This document shows, piece after piece, positions 32,114 to 37,801 of a stretch of DNA of 50,460 nucleotides. Each line of letters opens with the position of its first letter. The stretch's first letter is position 1. Location of the stretch: positions 1 to 50,460 of the forward strand of contig NZ_MTSB01000026.1 of the NCBI RefSeq assembly GCF_002093745.1, given 5' to 3'. Source of the stretch: Pseudomonas graminis. GTDB taxonomy: Bacteria; Pseudomonadota; Gammaproteobacteria; Pseudomonadales; Pseudomonadaceae. Both the position numbers and the translations under genes were made by a program. The notes below the pieces were generated by a model. That model had not been told where the DNA came from. It did no database searches and saw nothing but the letters and a program-made list of their open reading frames with translations.

Positions 32114-32331
32114 GGATAAACAATCTCGATTCACGATGTAGCGCCGGCAAGGCCGGGCTCTATGTTCTATTTACGTGCGGGTCTGTACGCGCGGGCGGTA
32201 TAAAGCCTCGCATTCAGTTAAAGACGAATGAGAACGGGATTCCTGTAGGAATATTTTGCGTTTAAATGAAAAAAATTGTTTCAGAGGTGCCGGGGATGAA
32301 GCGCGGCGGGGTTGAAACGGCGTAAGGCGGC
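32114..32331. other. Divergent promoter region between fpvG and the hydroxylase
   Basis: Together with the box at 32332 this is a ~310-nt divergent region. The part near fpvG holds a TAAAT on the minus strand (32169-32173) but the base triplet 16 nt later is CCT, not CGT. I see no convincing Fur box. The fpvG promoter is therefore not assigned. Confidence 0.4.
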
Positions 32332-32355
32332 TAATTTTTCAACCGCGAAGTACGT
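32332..32355 (+). promoter_or_regulatory. PvdS-dependent promoter for the aspartyl hydroxylase
   Basis: TAATT, exactly 16 nt, CGT, ending 70 nt before the hydroxylase start. The sequence before and after is nearly the same as the MbtH promoter at 25376. Confidence 0.8.
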
Positions 32356-32425
32356 TCAATCTGGACATGGGTGTTGCGCCAGACCGCAGGGGTCAGGGCG
32401 CTTTTGCCACCAAGGGAGAGACATC

Positions 32426-33403
32426 ATGAGTCATGCGTTGAGTTTGGATATCCGGCCGCTGCTGGAGGGGGCGGGCAGTTTGCCGATGGTGGTGCAGGCG
32501 CCCGAGCCCGGTCTGGACTTGATGGAAGCGCTGGGCGAATTCAAACCACTGGTGGCCGACCACCTGTACAGCGCAGGCGGCATCCTGTTTCGCGGTTTCG
32601 AGGTCGGCGGTGCCGAAGCCTTTCGTGAGTTTGCCGCAGGCTTTGGTGATCCGCTGCTCAATTACGAATTCGGCTCCACCCCGCGCAGCAACGTGACCAA
32701 AGGGGTCTACACCTCCACCGAATACCCGGCACACCAGAGCATCCCGCTGCACAACGAACAGGCCTACACGCTGGATTGGCCAATGAAAATCTGGTTCTAC
32801 AGCATGATCGCGGCGCAGACCGGCGGCGAAACGCCGATTGCCGACAGCCGCGAGATCTACCGGCGCATTCCGGCGCGCATCCGTGATCGTTTCATCGAAA
32901 AAAAGCTGATGTACGTACGCAACTACGGCAACGGGCTTGATGTGGAATGGAGCCAGGTGTTCAACACCGAAGATGAACGCGTGGTCGAGGCCTACTGCCG
33001 GGCACACCGCATCGAATGCGAGTGGAAAGACGACGGTGAACTGCGCACCCGGCAGATCTGCCAGGCCGTGTCCCGACATCCGGTGACCCAGGATACGGTC
33101 TGGTTCAATCAGGCGCACCTGTTCCACATCTCCAACCTGCAACCGGAAGTGCGCGAAACCTTGCTGGATGTCGTGGATGAGGAAGACCTGCCGCGCAACG
33201 TCTATTACGGCGACGGCTCGCCCCTCGAAGAAACCCTACTGGACGAGATTCGCGGCGTGCTCGACGCCTGCACCGTCAGCTTCCCGTGGCTGGAAAACGA
33301 CGTGCTGATGCTCGACAACATGCTCACCGCCCACTCCCGCGCGCCGTTCACCGGCAAACGCAAAGTCGTGGTGGCCATGGCGCAAGGGCATTCGGATAAG
33401 TAG
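32426..33403 (+). CDS. SyrP-type Fe(II)/2-oxoglutarate aspartyl beta-hydroxylase (TauD/TfdA family)
   Basis: 325-residue non-haem iron dioxygenase that most likely hydroxylates carrier-bound aspartate to beta-hydroxyaspartate, a hydroxycarboxylate iron ligand in P. syringae pyoverdines. The TauD/TfdA fold is clear: metal ligands His109 and Glu111 (IPLHNEQAYT), distal His303 in TAHSRAPFTGKRKVVVAM, with Arg312 a likely 2-oxoglutarate anchor. SyrP performs the same reaction in syringomycin synthesis. The partner Asp module is the first module of the 2,619-residue synthetase downstream. ATG 32426 follows GGGAGAG; an open frame reaching further upstream runs through the promoter. The last ~75 bp, including the codons for His303 and Arg312 and the stop, are repeated several times downstream. 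Confidence 0.92.
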   Translation: MSHALSLDIRPLLEGAGSLPMVVQAPEPGLDLMEALGEFKPLVADHLYSAGGILFRGFEVGGAEAFREFAAGFGDPLLNYEFGSTPRSNVTKGVYTSTEYPAHQSIPLHNEQAYTLDWPMKIWFYSMIAAQTGGETPIADSREIYRRIPARIRDRFIEKKLMYVRNYGNGLDVEWSQVFNTEDERVVEAYCRAHRIECEWKDDGELRTRQICQAVSRHPVTQDTVWFNQAHLFHISNLQPEVRETLLDVVDEEDLPRNVYYGDGSPLEETLLDEIRGVLDACTVSFPWLENDVLMLDNMLTAHSRAPFTGKRKVVVAMAQGHSDK

Positions 33404-33435
33404 CTGTTTGCGGGTGCTTGTGCCAATGCTCGGTT

Positions 33436-33526
33436 TGTGGGAGCGGACTTGTCCGCGAAGGCTCTCGTTCAGTCGATGCATGTTGAAAGATGTACGGGCC
33501 CTTTCGCGAACAAGTTCGCTCCCACA
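33436..33526. repeat. REP-like palindrome, unit 1
   Basis: 91-bp imperfect inverted repeat: TGTGGGAGCGGACTTGTCCG at the left and CGAACAAGTTCGCTCCCACA at the right, with a loop containing GTTCAGTCGATGCATGTTG. Lying 32 nt after the hydroxylase stop it may serve as its transcription end. Confidence 0.85.
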
Positions 33527-33623
33527 AGATCTCAACTACCGTGCGATAAACGCCCACTCCCGAGCGCCGTTCACCGGCAAGCGCAAAGTAGTTGTTTGCG
33601 GGTGCTTGTGCCAATGCTCAGTT

Positions 33624-33702
33624 TGTGGGAGCGGACTTGCCCGCGAAGGCTCTCGTTCAGTCGATGCATGTTGAAAGATGTACCGGCCCTTTCGCGAACA
33701 AG
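33624..33702. repeat. REP-like palindrome, unit 2 (right arm truncated)
   Basis: Same left arm with one change (CTTGCCCG for CTTGTCCG). The right arm stops at GCGAACAAG, losing TTCGCTCCCAC, so the outer stem cannot form. Confidence 0.85.
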
Positions 33703-33832
33703 ATCTCAACTGCCGTGCGATAAACGCCCACTCCCGAGCGCCGTTCACCGGCAAACGCAAAGTCGTGGTGGCCATGGCGCAAGGGCATTCGGATAAGTAG
33801 CTGTTTGCGGGTGCTTGTGCCAATGCTCGGTT

Positions 33833-33978
33833 TGTGGGAGCGGACTTGTCCGCGAAGGCTCTGGTTCAGTCGATGCATGTTGAAAGATGTACCGGCCCTT
33901 TCGCGAACAAGGGCTCTGGTTCAGTCGATGCATGTTGAAAGATGTACCGGCCCTTTCGCGAACAAGTTCGCTCCCACA
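33833..33978. repeat. REP-like palindrome, unit 3 (internal 55-bp duplication)
   Basis: Both outer arms are present, but GGCTCTGGTTCAGTCGATGC through CGCGAACAAG occurs twice in tandem, giving 146 bp instead of 91. Confidence 0.85.
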
Positions 33979-34110
33979 AGATCTCAACTGCCGTGCGATA
34001 AACGCCCACTCCCGAGCGCCGTTCACCGGCAAACGCAAAGTCGTGGTGGCCATGGCGCAAGGGCATTCGGATAAGTAGCTGTTTGCGGGTGCTTGTGCCA
34101 ATGCTCGGTT

Positions 34111-34201
34111 TGTGGGAGCGGACTTGTCCGCGAAGGCTCTCGTTCAGTCGATGCATGTTGAAAGATGTACGGGCCCTTTCGCGAACAAGTTCGCTCCCAC
34201 A
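34111..34201. repeat. REP-like palindrome, unit 4
   Basis: Same 91-bp length and, as far as I can read, the same sequence as unit 1, including the ACGGGCCC centre that differs from units 2 and 3 (ACCGGCCC). This suggests unit 4 derives from unit 1 or was homogenised with it. Confidence 0.85.
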
Positions 34202-34229
34202 AGATCTCATGCTCACCGCCCACTCCCGA

Positions 34230-34305
34230 CGCTTTGCGTCCGATCTTGAGCGTGCGACGCAGAGCGTCACCCAAGGCATCCCCACGCTGGAGCGTGAGGC
34301 ACGAT
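34230..34305. repeat. Short intergenic repeat of the GTGCGACGC family
   Basis: GACGCTTTGCGTCCGATC, GAGCGTGCGACGCAGAGCGT, then CCCACGCTGGAGCGTGAGGC and ACGATGAG. Two small stems (GACGC/GCGTC and CACGCT/AGCGTG). A second, poorer copy lies next to fpvF. It is a separate family from the GTGGGAGCG palindromes and closes the repeat region. Confidence 0.7.
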
Positions 34306-34312
34306 GAGTGTC

Positions 34313-34335
34313 TAAATATTTCCCCGCCAATTCGT
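34313..34335 (+). promoter_or_regulatory. Candidate PvdS promoter for the first side-chain synthetase, 15-nt spacer
   Basis: TAAAT, 15 nt, CGT, followed by TC as at other boxes, 55 nt before the start codon. The spacer is one base shorter than the 16 nt of the other four boxes. It sits immediately after the repeat region, so it would free the synthetase genes from read-through across the palindromes. Confidence 0.55.
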
Positions 34336-34390
34336 TCTTGTTGATACGACCCCGCCTGACGGTCAGCCCCATTCAGCAAGGATCCCGCCC

Positions 34391-37300
34391 ATGAACCCCG
34401 AACATGCCCAGAAACTCGCTCGTCGTTTTGTCGAGTTACCCCTTGAAAAACGTCGCCTGTTTCTTGAAGGCATGCGCAAGGAAAACATGGATTTCGCGCT
34501 GTTCCCGATTCCGTCCTGTGAAGGGCTGGCCGAGCGCGACGGGTTGTCCTATGCCCAGCAGCGCATGTGGTTCCTCTGGCAACTGGACCCGCACAGCGCA
34601 GCCTACAACCTGCCGATGTCGGTGTGCCTGAACGGCCCGCTGGAGCTGCCGCTGCTGGAGCGGGCGTTCAGTGCGCTGGTCGAGCGTCATGAAAGCCTGC
34701 GCACCACCTTCGGTCAGGACGGCGACCGGGCGTTTCAACGTGTTGCGCCGCCCACTCCGGTAAACATCCGCCTCATAGACCTGAGCCTGCTGCCGCCCGA
34801 GCAGCGCTGGTCGAACGCGCGGCAGGCGATGGCCGAGCAGGCGGCGCAGACCTTCGACTTGCAGCGCGGGCCGTTGTTTACCGTGCAGGTGCTGCGCCTT
34901 GCCGAGCAGGAACATGTGCTGCTGCTCAACCTGCACCACATGATCACCGACGGCTGGTCGATGAACGTGTTGATCGACGAATGGCTGCGTGGTTACGACG
35001 CGCTGCTGGCCGGCAAGCCGCTGCCATTTCAGCCGTTGCTGGTGCAGTACCGCGATTACGCCGTCTGGCAACGCAGTTGGCTGGAGGCTGGTGAACAGGA
35101 GCGCCAGCTGGACTATTGGCGCAAGCACCTGGGTGAAGAGCATCCGGTACTCGAACTGCCCACAGACCGCCCGTACCCGGCATTGCCCAGCCACGACGGC
35201 GCGCGCCTGGAGCTGGCGCTGGCGCCCGAGCTGCTGCGCCACCTTAAATCCCTCGCGCAACGTCAAGGCGTGACCCTGTTCGTGGTGCTGCTGGCGACCT
35301 TCAAAAGCCTGCTGCACCGCTACAGCGGGCAGACCGATATCCGCGTCGGCGGGCTGATTGCCAACCGCACACGCAGTGAAACCGAAGGGTTGATCGGCTG
35401 CTTCATCAACACCCAGGTATTGCGCAGCGAAGTCACGGCGCAGACACGCTTTGTCGATTTGCTGCACACCGTGCGCGATGCCTCGACCGGCGCCCAGGCG
35501 CATCAGGAATTGCCGTTCGACGCGATCATCGACGCCTTGCAACCGGAGCGCAGCCAAAGCCACAACCCGTTGTTCCAGGTGATGTTCAACCATCAGCCGG
35601 TGGTGGCCGATCTGCTGGACAAACAACTGAGCGGTGGCCTGCGCGTGGCCAACCTGCCCGCCGAACAACAAGCACTGGCCCAGCGTTCACATGCCGCCGC
35701 CAGTGACCTGATGCTCGCCACCAGCGGAGAAGGCGAGCAACTGAACGCGGCCTTCACCTACGCCACCGATATTTTTGACGAATCGACCATCGCTCGTCTG
35801 GCCGCGCATTGGCGCAACCTGCTGACGTCGGTCTGCGCCGATCCGCTGCAAACCATCGCCGAGCTGTCGATGCTCTCGGCCGATGAGCGCACACACCTGC
35901 TGGATGTCGACAGCAGCACCCAAACCGACACCACAACCCCCGCGCATTGCCAGTTCGAAGCGCAAGTGCAGCGCACACCGGACGCCCTCGCGTTGATCCT
36001 TGCCGGCGAAGGCCATTCGCCGCGCCTGACCTACGCCGAGCTGAACGAGCGCAGCAACCGTCTGGCCTGGCAACTGCGCGAGCAGGGCGTTGGCCCTGAC
36101 GTGCTGGTCGGCGTGGCGTTGGGCCGTTCGCTGGACATGCCGGTCGCGCTGCTGGCCGTGCTCAAGGCGGGCGGTGCCTACGTGCCGCTGGACCTCAGCG
36201 CGCCAAGCGACCGTTTGCGCCATGTGCTGCAAGACAGCGGCCTGAAACGGCTGCTGACCCACAGCGAACAGCGGCCGACGCTGCCTGAACTGGCTGGTAT
36301 TCAGTGCTTGTGCATCGATCAGATGAACAGCGACGCCGCCAGCGCGCAAAACCTGAATGTCGCCGTTGCCCCGGCCAATCTGGCCTACGTGATCTACACC
36401 TCGGGTTCGACCGGCCGGCCAAAAGGCGTGGCGATCAGTCATGGCGCGCTGGCCGAATTCGTCAGCCTGGGCGCGGGCTACAGCGACCTGCGCGAAGGCG
36501 ACCGGGTTCTGCAATTTGCGACTCAGAGCTTCGATGGCTTTGTCGAACAGTTCTACCCGCCGCTGTGCCGTGGCGCGGCGGTGGTGCTGCGTGACGAGCG
36601 TTTATGGGACAGCGCCACCTTCCATCAAGTCATTCTCGAACACGGTGTGACCCTGGCTGACTTGCCTGCGGCCTATTGGCTGACCCTGGCCCAGGATTTT
36701 GCCGACCGCCCGCCCGCGCATTACGGCGTGCTGCGGCAGGTTCACGTCGGCGGCGAGGCGATGGCCGTCGAAGGTCTGCGACTGTGGCACCAGGCAGGGC
36801 TCGGGCATGTGCGCCTGCTCAATACCTATGGCCCGACCGAAGTCACCGTGGTGTCGAGCCTCCACGATTGCAGCGCGCTGACCCCGGAACAGGTGTCCTG
36901 GCGCGGCGTGCCGATCGGCAAAGGCCTGGCGGGGCGTCGTTTGTACGTGCTCGACGATCAACTGAACCTGCTGCCGCAAGGTGCGGTGGGCGAGCTGTAC
37001 ATCGGCGGGCCGGGTCTGGCGCGGGGTTATCACGCCCAGCCGGGCCTGAGCGCCGAGCGTTTTGTGGCGGATCCATTCGTGGCAGGGCAACGTTTGTACC
37101 GCACCGGCGACCGTGCCCGACTGCGTGCTGATGGCGCCATCGAGTACATCGGCCGGGTTGATCATCAGGTGAAAATTCGCGGTTTCCGCATCGAACTGGG
37201 CGAAATCGAGTCGCGCCTGCAGCAATGCACGGGCGTTCGCGAGGCTGTGGTGCTGGCGGTTGCGCTGGCAGGCAGTAAGCAACTGGTTGCCTACGTGGTG

Positions 37301-37801
37301 CCGCAGGTCGCGGCGAACAGCGACGCCGAGCAACTGGCTGTGCGCCAGAGCATCAAGAGCCAACTGCAAGCCAGCCTGCCGGATTACATGGTGCCGACGC
37401 ATGTGCTGCTGTTGGCAGACTTGCCACTCACGCCCAGCGGCAAACTGGACCGCAAGGCGTTGCCTGCGCCCGACTCAAGCCAGTTGCAGGCCCGTTATCG
37501 CGCGCCGCACAGCGAGGTGGAAATCTGCCTCGCGGCTGTCTGGCAGGAAGTCCTGCACGCGCAGCAGGTCGGGCTGGACGATCACTTCTTCGAGCTGGGC
37601 GGCCATTCGCTGCTCGCCGCGCAAGTCATCGCCCGAATCAAGACCCGGCTGGGCGTCAACCTGCCGCTGCGCGTGCTCTTCGAAAAACCGCTGCTGGGCG
37701 AACTCGCCGCCGAAGTGGCCCTGCTGACCGACAACACGACGGATAACGACTGGAGCGACATGGACCAGTTCATGGATTCACTGGAGGAATTTGGCGCATG
37801 A
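34391..37801 (+). CDS. Pyoverdine side-chain peptide synthetase, one module (probable Lys)
   Basis: 1,136 residues: C domain ~50-480 ([16 protein letters not shown]; active site HHMITDGWS at ~182), A domain ~515-1010 (YTSGSTGRPKGV ~669, [27 protein letters not shown]), carrier ~1063 ([13 protein letters not shown]). No E or TE domain. The N terminus before the C domain (MNPEHAQKLARRFVELPLEK) resembles that of the next synthetase and may help docking. Pocket residues read by eye are D-G-E-D-H-G-T-V-V, which I associate with Lys modules of pyoverdine synthetases; Lys is also the first side-chain residue in P. syringae pyoverdine. ATG 34391 follows AAGGA. The stop overlaps the next gene's ATG by 4 nt. 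Confidence 0.93.
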   Translation: MNPEHAQKLARRFVELPLEKRRLFLEGMRKENMDFALFPIPSCEGLAERDGLSYAQQRMWFLWQLDPHSAAYNLPMSVCLNGPLELPLLERAFSALVERHESLRTTFGQDGDRAFQRVAPPTPVNIRLIDLSLLPPEQRWSNARQAMAEQAAQTFDLQRGPLFTVQVLRLAEQEHVLLLNLHHMITDGWSMNVLIDEWLRGYDALLAGKPLPFQPLLVQYRDYAVWQRSWLEAGEQERQLDYWRKHLGEEHPVLELPTDRPYPALPSHDGARLELALAPELLRHLKSLAQRQGVTLFVVLLATFKSLLHRYSGQTDIRVGGLIANRTRSETEGLIGCFINTQVLRSEVTAQTRFVDLLHTVRDASTGAQAHQELPFDAIIDALQPERSQSHNPLFQVMFNHQPVVADLLDKQLSGGLRVANLPAEQQALAQRSHAAASDLMLATSGEGEQLNAAFTYATDIFDESTIARLAAHWRNLLTSVCADPLQTIAELSMLSADERTHLLDVDSSTQTDTTTPAHCQFEAQVQRTPDALALILAGEGHSPRLTYAELNERSNRLAWQLREQGVGPDVLVGVALGRSLDMPVALLAVLKAGGAYVPLDLSAPSDRLRHVLQDSGLKRLLTHSEQRPTLPELAGIQCLCIDQMNSDAASAQNLNVAVAPANLAYVIYTSGSTGRPKGVAISHGALAEFVSLGAGYSDLREGDRVLQFATQSFDGFVEQFYPPLCRGAAVVLRDERLWDSATFHQVILEHGVTLADLPAAYWLTLAQDFADRPPAHYGVLRQVHVGGEAMAVEGLRLWHQAGLGHVRLLNTYGPTEVTVVSSLHDCSALTPEQVSWRGVPIGKGLAGRRLYVLDDQLNLLPQGAVGELYIGGPGLARGYHAQPGLSAERFVADPFVAGQRLYRTGDRARLRADGAIEYIGRVDHQVKIRGFRIELGEIESRLQQCTGVREAVVLAVALAGSKQLVAYVVPQVAANSDAEQLAVRQSIKSQLQASLPDYMVPTHVLLLADLPLTPSGKLDRKALPAPDSSQLQARYRAPHSEVEICLAAVWQEVLHAQQVGLDDHFFELGGHSLLAAQVIARIKTRLGVNLPLRVLFEKPLLGELAAEVALLTDNTTDNDWSDMDQFMDSLEEFGA

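Follow-up and report, generated by a model that had tools for sequence, protein, structure and literature searches.

The bacterial interspersed mosaic elements of type 2 (BIME-2) of enterobacteria are extragenic arrays located behind genes, in which alternating repetitive extragenic palindromic (REP) sequences have been amplified in tandem, and in the silent-cassette systems pilE/pilS and vlsE partial copies of the 3′ end of a gene lie beside the active gene. Here we analysed a window of 50,460 nucleotides from Pseudomonas graminis (contig NZ_MTSB01000026.1, positions 1 to 50,460), in which a REP array carrying copies of a gene's 3′ end is located behind a gene encoding a hydroxylase of the TauD/TfdA family. 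It resembles pilE/pilS and vlsE in having partial 3′ copies beside the active gene and is unlike them in that its whole copies are nearly without diversity and give no indication of having passed into the gene; the likeness to BIME-2 is limited by the different REP families and by the short linkers found there instead of coding tails. The closest described case is that of Pseudomonas fluorescens SBW25, whose genome was reported to hold 16 tandem clusters of REP doublets forming hairpins (REPINs), the largest spreading four REPINs across more than 700 bp, and where these clusters repeat "including the flanking sequences" (Bertels and Rainey, 2011, PMC3116915, in the parts of that paper used here). 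Like those clusters, the hydroxylase array is a tandem repeat of REPIN plus flank; unlike in the description given in those parts of PMC3116915, its flank is the coding end of a gene together with the stop, and a comparable copy behind the msrA gene of the same genome holds a different allele. We take the hydroxylase array to be a tandem REPIN cluster in which the repeated flank is coding. In the literature searched, and within those limits, no pertinent report of coding tails in REP arrays was found.

The array extends between the hydroxylase gene (32426..33403, forward strand, 325 amino acids; Pfam PF02668, E value 2e-47), which is the active gene, and a nonribosomal peptide synthetase (NRPS) gene, and consists of four units and a stub of 19 nucleotides, with three distal tails, two of them intact. 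A full unit is composed, in this order, of the last base of codon 301, the 24 last codons, the stop, a 31-nucleotide spacer, a 93-nucleotide REPIN and a 23-nucleotide right flank, after which the next tail begins. Repeat comparison placed the repeated tail in the gene itself at 33328..33403 (forward strand, 76 nucleotides: codons 302-325, the stop and the base after it). It is followed in unit 1 by the REPIN at 33435..33527 (a REP and an inverted REP, without strand) and, at 33528..33550 (likewise without strand), by the right flank, in which sequence comparison revealed the GATTTCAACTACCGTGCGAT also present in P. amygdali with one base different, ending in a junction AAA. An initial annotation of this DNA had given the tail as about 75 bp, which holds, and the palindrome as 91 bp, which has to be corrected to 93.

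Comparison of the units showed that in unit 2 (33551..33724, forward strand) the remaining tail (33551-33591) has lost 35 nucleotides, and with them the frame and the stop, and that the REPIN has lost 14 nucleotides, within the second REP. Unit 3 (33725..34002, forward strand) has an intact tail (33725-33800) and a REPIN with a perfect internal duplication of 55 nucleotides (33857-33966), the only part of the array that the program TRF detected by itself. In unit 4 (34003..34209, forward strand), an intact tail (34003-34078) and a REPIN identical to that of unit 1 (34110-34202) are followed by only seven bases of the right flank, which then join the stub (34210..34228, forward strand), shown by sequence comparison to be gene sequence from further upstream, TGCTCACCGCCCACTCCCG, with another breakpoint. 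At least two different joins of REPIN flank to gene tail are therefore present within a single array. Both whole distal tails are in frame, as had been noticed before, and each is identical to the gene at 75 of 76 positions, the sole change being CGC to CGA at Arg305, which is silent.

A search for direct repeats, using a reference unit of 214 nucleotides, recovered four copies (at 89%, 63%, the reference itself and 99%) with start spacings of 188, 209 and 278 nucleotides, and a search for inverted repeats found arms of 37 nucleotides; together they confirmed the previously described arrangement of tail plus palindrome in four units and a stub, with internal losses and gains. Units 1 and 4 are 99.5% identical over 207 nucleotides, and units 1 and 3 98.4% over 187. 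The REPIN folds as DNA into a long hairpin with a z-score of −6.5 (none of 200 shuffles folded as well), compared to +0.26 for the gene tail itself. Given the likeness of units 1 and 4 and the stability of the hairpin, the array is confirmed as real in the given sequence, far beyond chance. The count of four units rests on a draft assembly of 5.69 Mb in 42 contigs, several of which end in REPs, and the exact number is therefore provisional.

The core of the REP was matched exactly 92 times in forward and 93 times in reverse orientation in the genome, and the reversed-pattern control gave no match. The genome also contains two Y1-transposase genes above the PF01797 cut-off, an assignment that applies at the level of the Y1 family, so that the subtype of REP-associated tyrosine transposase (RAYT) is putative. 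About 200 nucleotides from one of these RAYT-type genes, an array of four REPs with a spacing of 119 nucleotides runs to the contig end (stretches L202 and L205; contig C17, about 50984-51922). Further REPs lie within about 80 nucleotides of the ends of contigs C1, C3, C7, C8, C11 and C12, and REP arrays therefore probably broke the assembly of this genome. The hydroxylase array thus has what is characteristic of a tandem REPIN cluster: an inverted pair of REPs in one hairpin, a REP of high copy number, a Y1-type gene in the genome, a flank in tandem copies and a REPIN whose presence at the site varies from relative to relative.

Relatives of the hydroxylase are encoded at 80 loci, and all 80 have exactly one tail when matches of at least 35 nucleotides are scored, a threshold that shorter stubs would escape; three of these loci, including that of P. 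avellanae, hold only 160-255 nucleotides behind the tail, and a longer array is possible there. Allowing up to two mismatches, the head-to-tail junction between units was found in one of 398 genomes of the genus, namely the source genome, with three matches. The collections compared contain one genome per species. An array fixed in all relatives, which the initial annotation had named as evidence against its proposal, was not observed, since none of the relatives examined carries it. In P. amygdali and P. avellanae a single tail is followed by a single REPIN that starts 77 nucleotides after the stop, and no REPIN match was found at the site in either P. tremae or P. caricapapayae. At that spot P. 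syringae pv. cilantro 0788_9 has no REPIN, apparently because of a deletion at a 6-bp microhomology, and it contains another REP pair further along its gap. The presence of the REPIN in P. amygdali and P. avellanae, together with the restriction of the junction to the source genome, indicates that the REPIN predates the array and that, within the reach of collections with one genome per species, the array is young and confined to this lineage. Alignment of the whole gap with MAFFT placed the repeats wrongly and was used for the flanks only. No strain of the same species with the array was found. A genome labelled as the same species (G020) was not used as a sister because its best match to the hydroxylase DNA is 73% and its MsrA is 85% identical, values which make either its label or the locus odd.

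Taken as a whole, we consider it very probable that the array is a tandem REPIN cluster with a coding flank, made by local duplication and subsequently by slippage and exchange among units. In the ancestor, one REPIN would have been located 3′ of the hydroxylase stop. A local duplication in this lineage, probably by replication slippage or template switching at the REPIN hairpin, would then have taken the REPIN together with its flank, reaching 76 nucleotides into the hydroxylase gene because the REPIN now starts just 32 nucleotides after the stop. Later slippage at short microhomologies and unequal exchange between units may have produced the four uneven units and the stub, leaving the distal tails as presumable passengers in the gap that separates the hydroxylase stop from the next gene and that would tolerate additional DNA. 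That the array ends before a conserved stretch upstream of the NRPS gene fits such a place. The anatomy of the array, its lack in the relatives compared, the occurrence of similar arrays at other genes, the microhomology and the mosaic of variants are observations; we infer that the hairpin triggers the event and that the array is neutral.

Two kinds of evidence favour slippage and exchange among the units. The five breakpoints scored have microhomologies of 2, 4, 5, 0 and 6 bp, which sum to 17 bp, compared to a mean of 0.69 at random junctions in the same region (P of 2.5e-5 for a sum of at least 17). In addition, the variants are distributed as a mosaic: at tail position 33340 the gene has C where units 2-4 have A; a T directly behind the stop occurs in unit 2 alone and is shared with several relatives; and at REPIN position 33496 units 1 and 4 carry the derived G, units 2 and 3 the C of P. 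amygdali. The derived REPIN base shared by units 1 and 4 and the tail base shared by units 2-4 argue for exchange or re-copying among units, unless bases changed twice, and are not readily reconciled with plain end-to-end copying. The preference for slippage or recombination expressed in the initial annotation is thus borne out by microhomology at four of the five breakpoints and by the mosaic. Several points weigh against the interpretation. The breakpoints were chosen by eye, four in the array and one being the REPIN loss in the relative, and the score covers neither the internal head-to-tail join nor the one between stub and outer flank. The breakpoint without microhomology is that of the 55-nucleotide duplication in unit 3, and the internal head-to-tail junction carries the AAA, which is in neither parent sequence. 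The number of units is that of the assembly and could be its product.

Coding tails are not confined to the hydroxylase. We surveyed 24 stretches of the source genome, taken from the REP-rich places among those listed and covering part of the genome; 22 were examined, and L183 and L184, without direct repeat, were left out. Direct repeats occurred in 20 of the 22 (in some cases just two copies, or copies lying where a contig ends), and in 6 of the 20 the repeat enters the 3′ end of a Pfam-backed gene, from the stop, by at least 20 nucleotides. The genes and the lengths of their tails are the hydroxylase (76 nucleotides), msrA (95), a GntR/FCD regulator (34), RsmE (29; two of its units also hold a separate 57-nucleotide piece of its 3′ end), an alpha-2-macroglobulin-like gene (26, in diverged form) and a penicillin-amidase-like gene (21). 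The lengths in this survey are unions of repeats, and the tails named by gene were inspected individually. Tails in open reading frames (ORFs) without Pfam match were not counted (83 nucleotides in L179, 20 in L198 and 10 in L178), nor were those in further ORFs, for example in L173, L180, L196, L199 and L200, most of which overlap other frames.

In the closed genomes of P. cerasi and Pseudomonas sp. KUIN-1, 16 of 18 stretches, from among the REP places listed, have repeats near REPs, and four of the 18 (three genes) carry Pfam-backed tails of at least 20 nucleotides. In P. cerasi, 144 nucleotides of an ABC-transporter gene and its stop were duplicated together with a REP, with agreement at 232 of 241 positions, a luciferase-like monooxygenase has a tail of 28 nucleotides, and about 51 nucleotides of the tail of a YiiD-type thioesterase could be aligned in two further units. 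At the shared monooxygenase locus, the array contains four exact REPs in KUIN-1 vs. eight in P. cerasi. A tail of 61 nucleotides in a 506-residue ORF of another genome (L241), without Pfam match, was not counted. We also observed in P. cerasi a series of eight REPs with a spacing of exactly 222 nucleotides (L266, about 5518500-5520400). REP arrays carrying coding tails recur in this group and are not exceptional, which contradicts the premise of the initial annotation that REPs do not normally carry such tails: six of 20 stretches in the source genome have one, and so do the two closed genomes.

At msrA (gene tail and tail copy in contig C1, L181:1636-1730 and 1879-1973), the two units of 243 nucleotides are identical at all 148 noncoding positions and differ at 10 of 95 coding ones (Fisher P of 6e-5). 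The tail copy is identical to msrA of P. avellanae at 93 of 95 positions and to its own gene at 85 of 95 (89.5%); its identity to the other 12 relatives compared is 83.9-88.4%. For P. syringae pv. cilantro 0788_9 the value is 84.9%, and the more distant genome G018 has 16 differences in 95 positions. Two allele lineages thus stand side by side in one genome, and exchange involving tails has happened at msrA: once the duplication had arisen, the gene was replaced, or else the coding part of the copy came from another lineage, and we assign no direction. Our first preference, that the copy is a fossil of the former allele of the gene, was dropped given that the msrA gene and both its flanks are about 9-10% different from P. 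avellanae. For RsmE, we compared with 13 relatives the five sites that distinguish the copies at L175:2232-2288 and 2455-2483 from the gene. At four of them the base of the copies occurs in 13, 7, 10 and 10 relatives and that of the gene in 0, 1, 3 and 3, and at the fifth all 13 have the base of the gene; in the copy at L175:2007-2063, three further sites have the base of the gene in 13, 13 and 9 relatives. This picture is mixed. The differing base of the hydroxylase copies is common to P. avellanae, and at the other sites of the gene specific to P. avellanae the copies carry the bases of their own gene, so the shared base proves nothing.

The alternatives to local duplication and slippage were weighed against these results. 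In the draft, a single or double tail could have been inflated by mis-joined reads, as the several contigs ending in REPs and the perfection of the 55-nucleotide duplication would allow; we regard this as very unlikely, since the units carry private substitutions, deletions of 35 and 14 nucleotides and two kinds of junction, differences that do not arise from mis-joining identical reads. The arrays in closed genomes show in addition that this type of structure is not an artefact, and do not settle the unit count at the hydroxylase. Very unlikely, too, is an amplification driven by a RAYT, in which the transposase would excise the REPIN with its flank and re-insert it next to itself. The RAYT-type genes, one of them near the REP array that closes contig C17, speak for it, but the head-to-tail order, the gene-specific flanks, the varied junctions within one array and the microhomology need no transposase.

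The initial annotation had also proposed, as the more speculative option, that the distal tails form a store of donors able to convert the C terminus of the hydroxylase. Two such tails are intact and in frame, variants have been exchanged among the units, and msrA with its P. avellanae-like copy is an example of different alleles in gene and copy. In contrast, silent-cassette systems have diverse open copies and expressed genes that receive tracts from them. Of the three distal hydroxylase tails, one is broken and the other two are identical to each other, differing from the gene by a single silent base, so they have nothing useful to donate. The codon for Arg305 is CGC in the gene and in 15 of 17 relatives checked, the CGA of the copies being found only in P. 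avellanae; the hydroxylase thus keeps the common codon and shows no tract acquired from a copy. We therefore hold a store at the hydroxylase to be highly improbable. Of the earlier proposals slippage stands, the exceptional status of coding tails does not, and the store at this gene is unsupported. For the group at large, tail-bearing REPIN arrays might be recurring local archives that keep alleles of earlier or foreign lineages, as behind msrA, and may occasionally hand one back to the gene, with DNA of other strains recombining with either the gene tail or the distal tail, because the arrays add homology exactly at the 3′ ends of genes; we consider this unlikely.

While known clusters are described as REPIN plus flank, the flank here is often the coding end of a gene with its stop. 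Arrays with coding tails are gene-anchored records of local duplication, and they suggest that REPINs destabilise the adjacent DNA into coding sequence. Most worth pursuing are the repeated occurrence of coding tails and the differing alleles at msrA. Such arrays may break or inflate draft assemblies, a warning for assemblers, and arrays like that of the hydroxylase contain spurious ORFs, a warning for annotators.

Judged by its relatives, the host, a plant-associated Pseudomonas, would belong to the P. syringae group; among named relatives it is closest at the locus to P. syringae pv. cilantro 0788_9, with 93% over 2.5 kb, and to P. avellanae, with 91%. His303 and Arg312 of the hydroxylase, whose codons lie in the tail, fall on the conserved HSR...R in an alignment with two TauD-like proteins of solved structure and are plausible as predicted catalytic residues. 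The NRPS gene downstream (34391..37801, forward strand) encodes a condensation-adenylation-thiolation (C-A-T) module according to Pfam, and the pair is presumably part of a siderophore cluster. Within 32200-34600, Rfam gave no match up to an E value of 0.1, and pattern scans found neither sigma-70 promoters nor intrinsic terminators; a role of the array as terminator is therefore unsupported by these scans. The motif TAAAT-N15-CGT at 34313..34335 (forward strand) is a candidate promoter box of the NRPS gene for an iron sigma factor of PvdS type, whose consensus it resembles. The motif occurs three times in the window vs. 0.96 expected, which is not significant by motif alone, and the stretch containing it is alike in nine of ten relatives compared, the contig of the tenth stopping short of it. 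A second palindromic repeat, of the GACGCAGAGCGTC kind and distinct from the REPs analysed, lies right after the array at 34229-34310 and recurs in the gaps of relatives.
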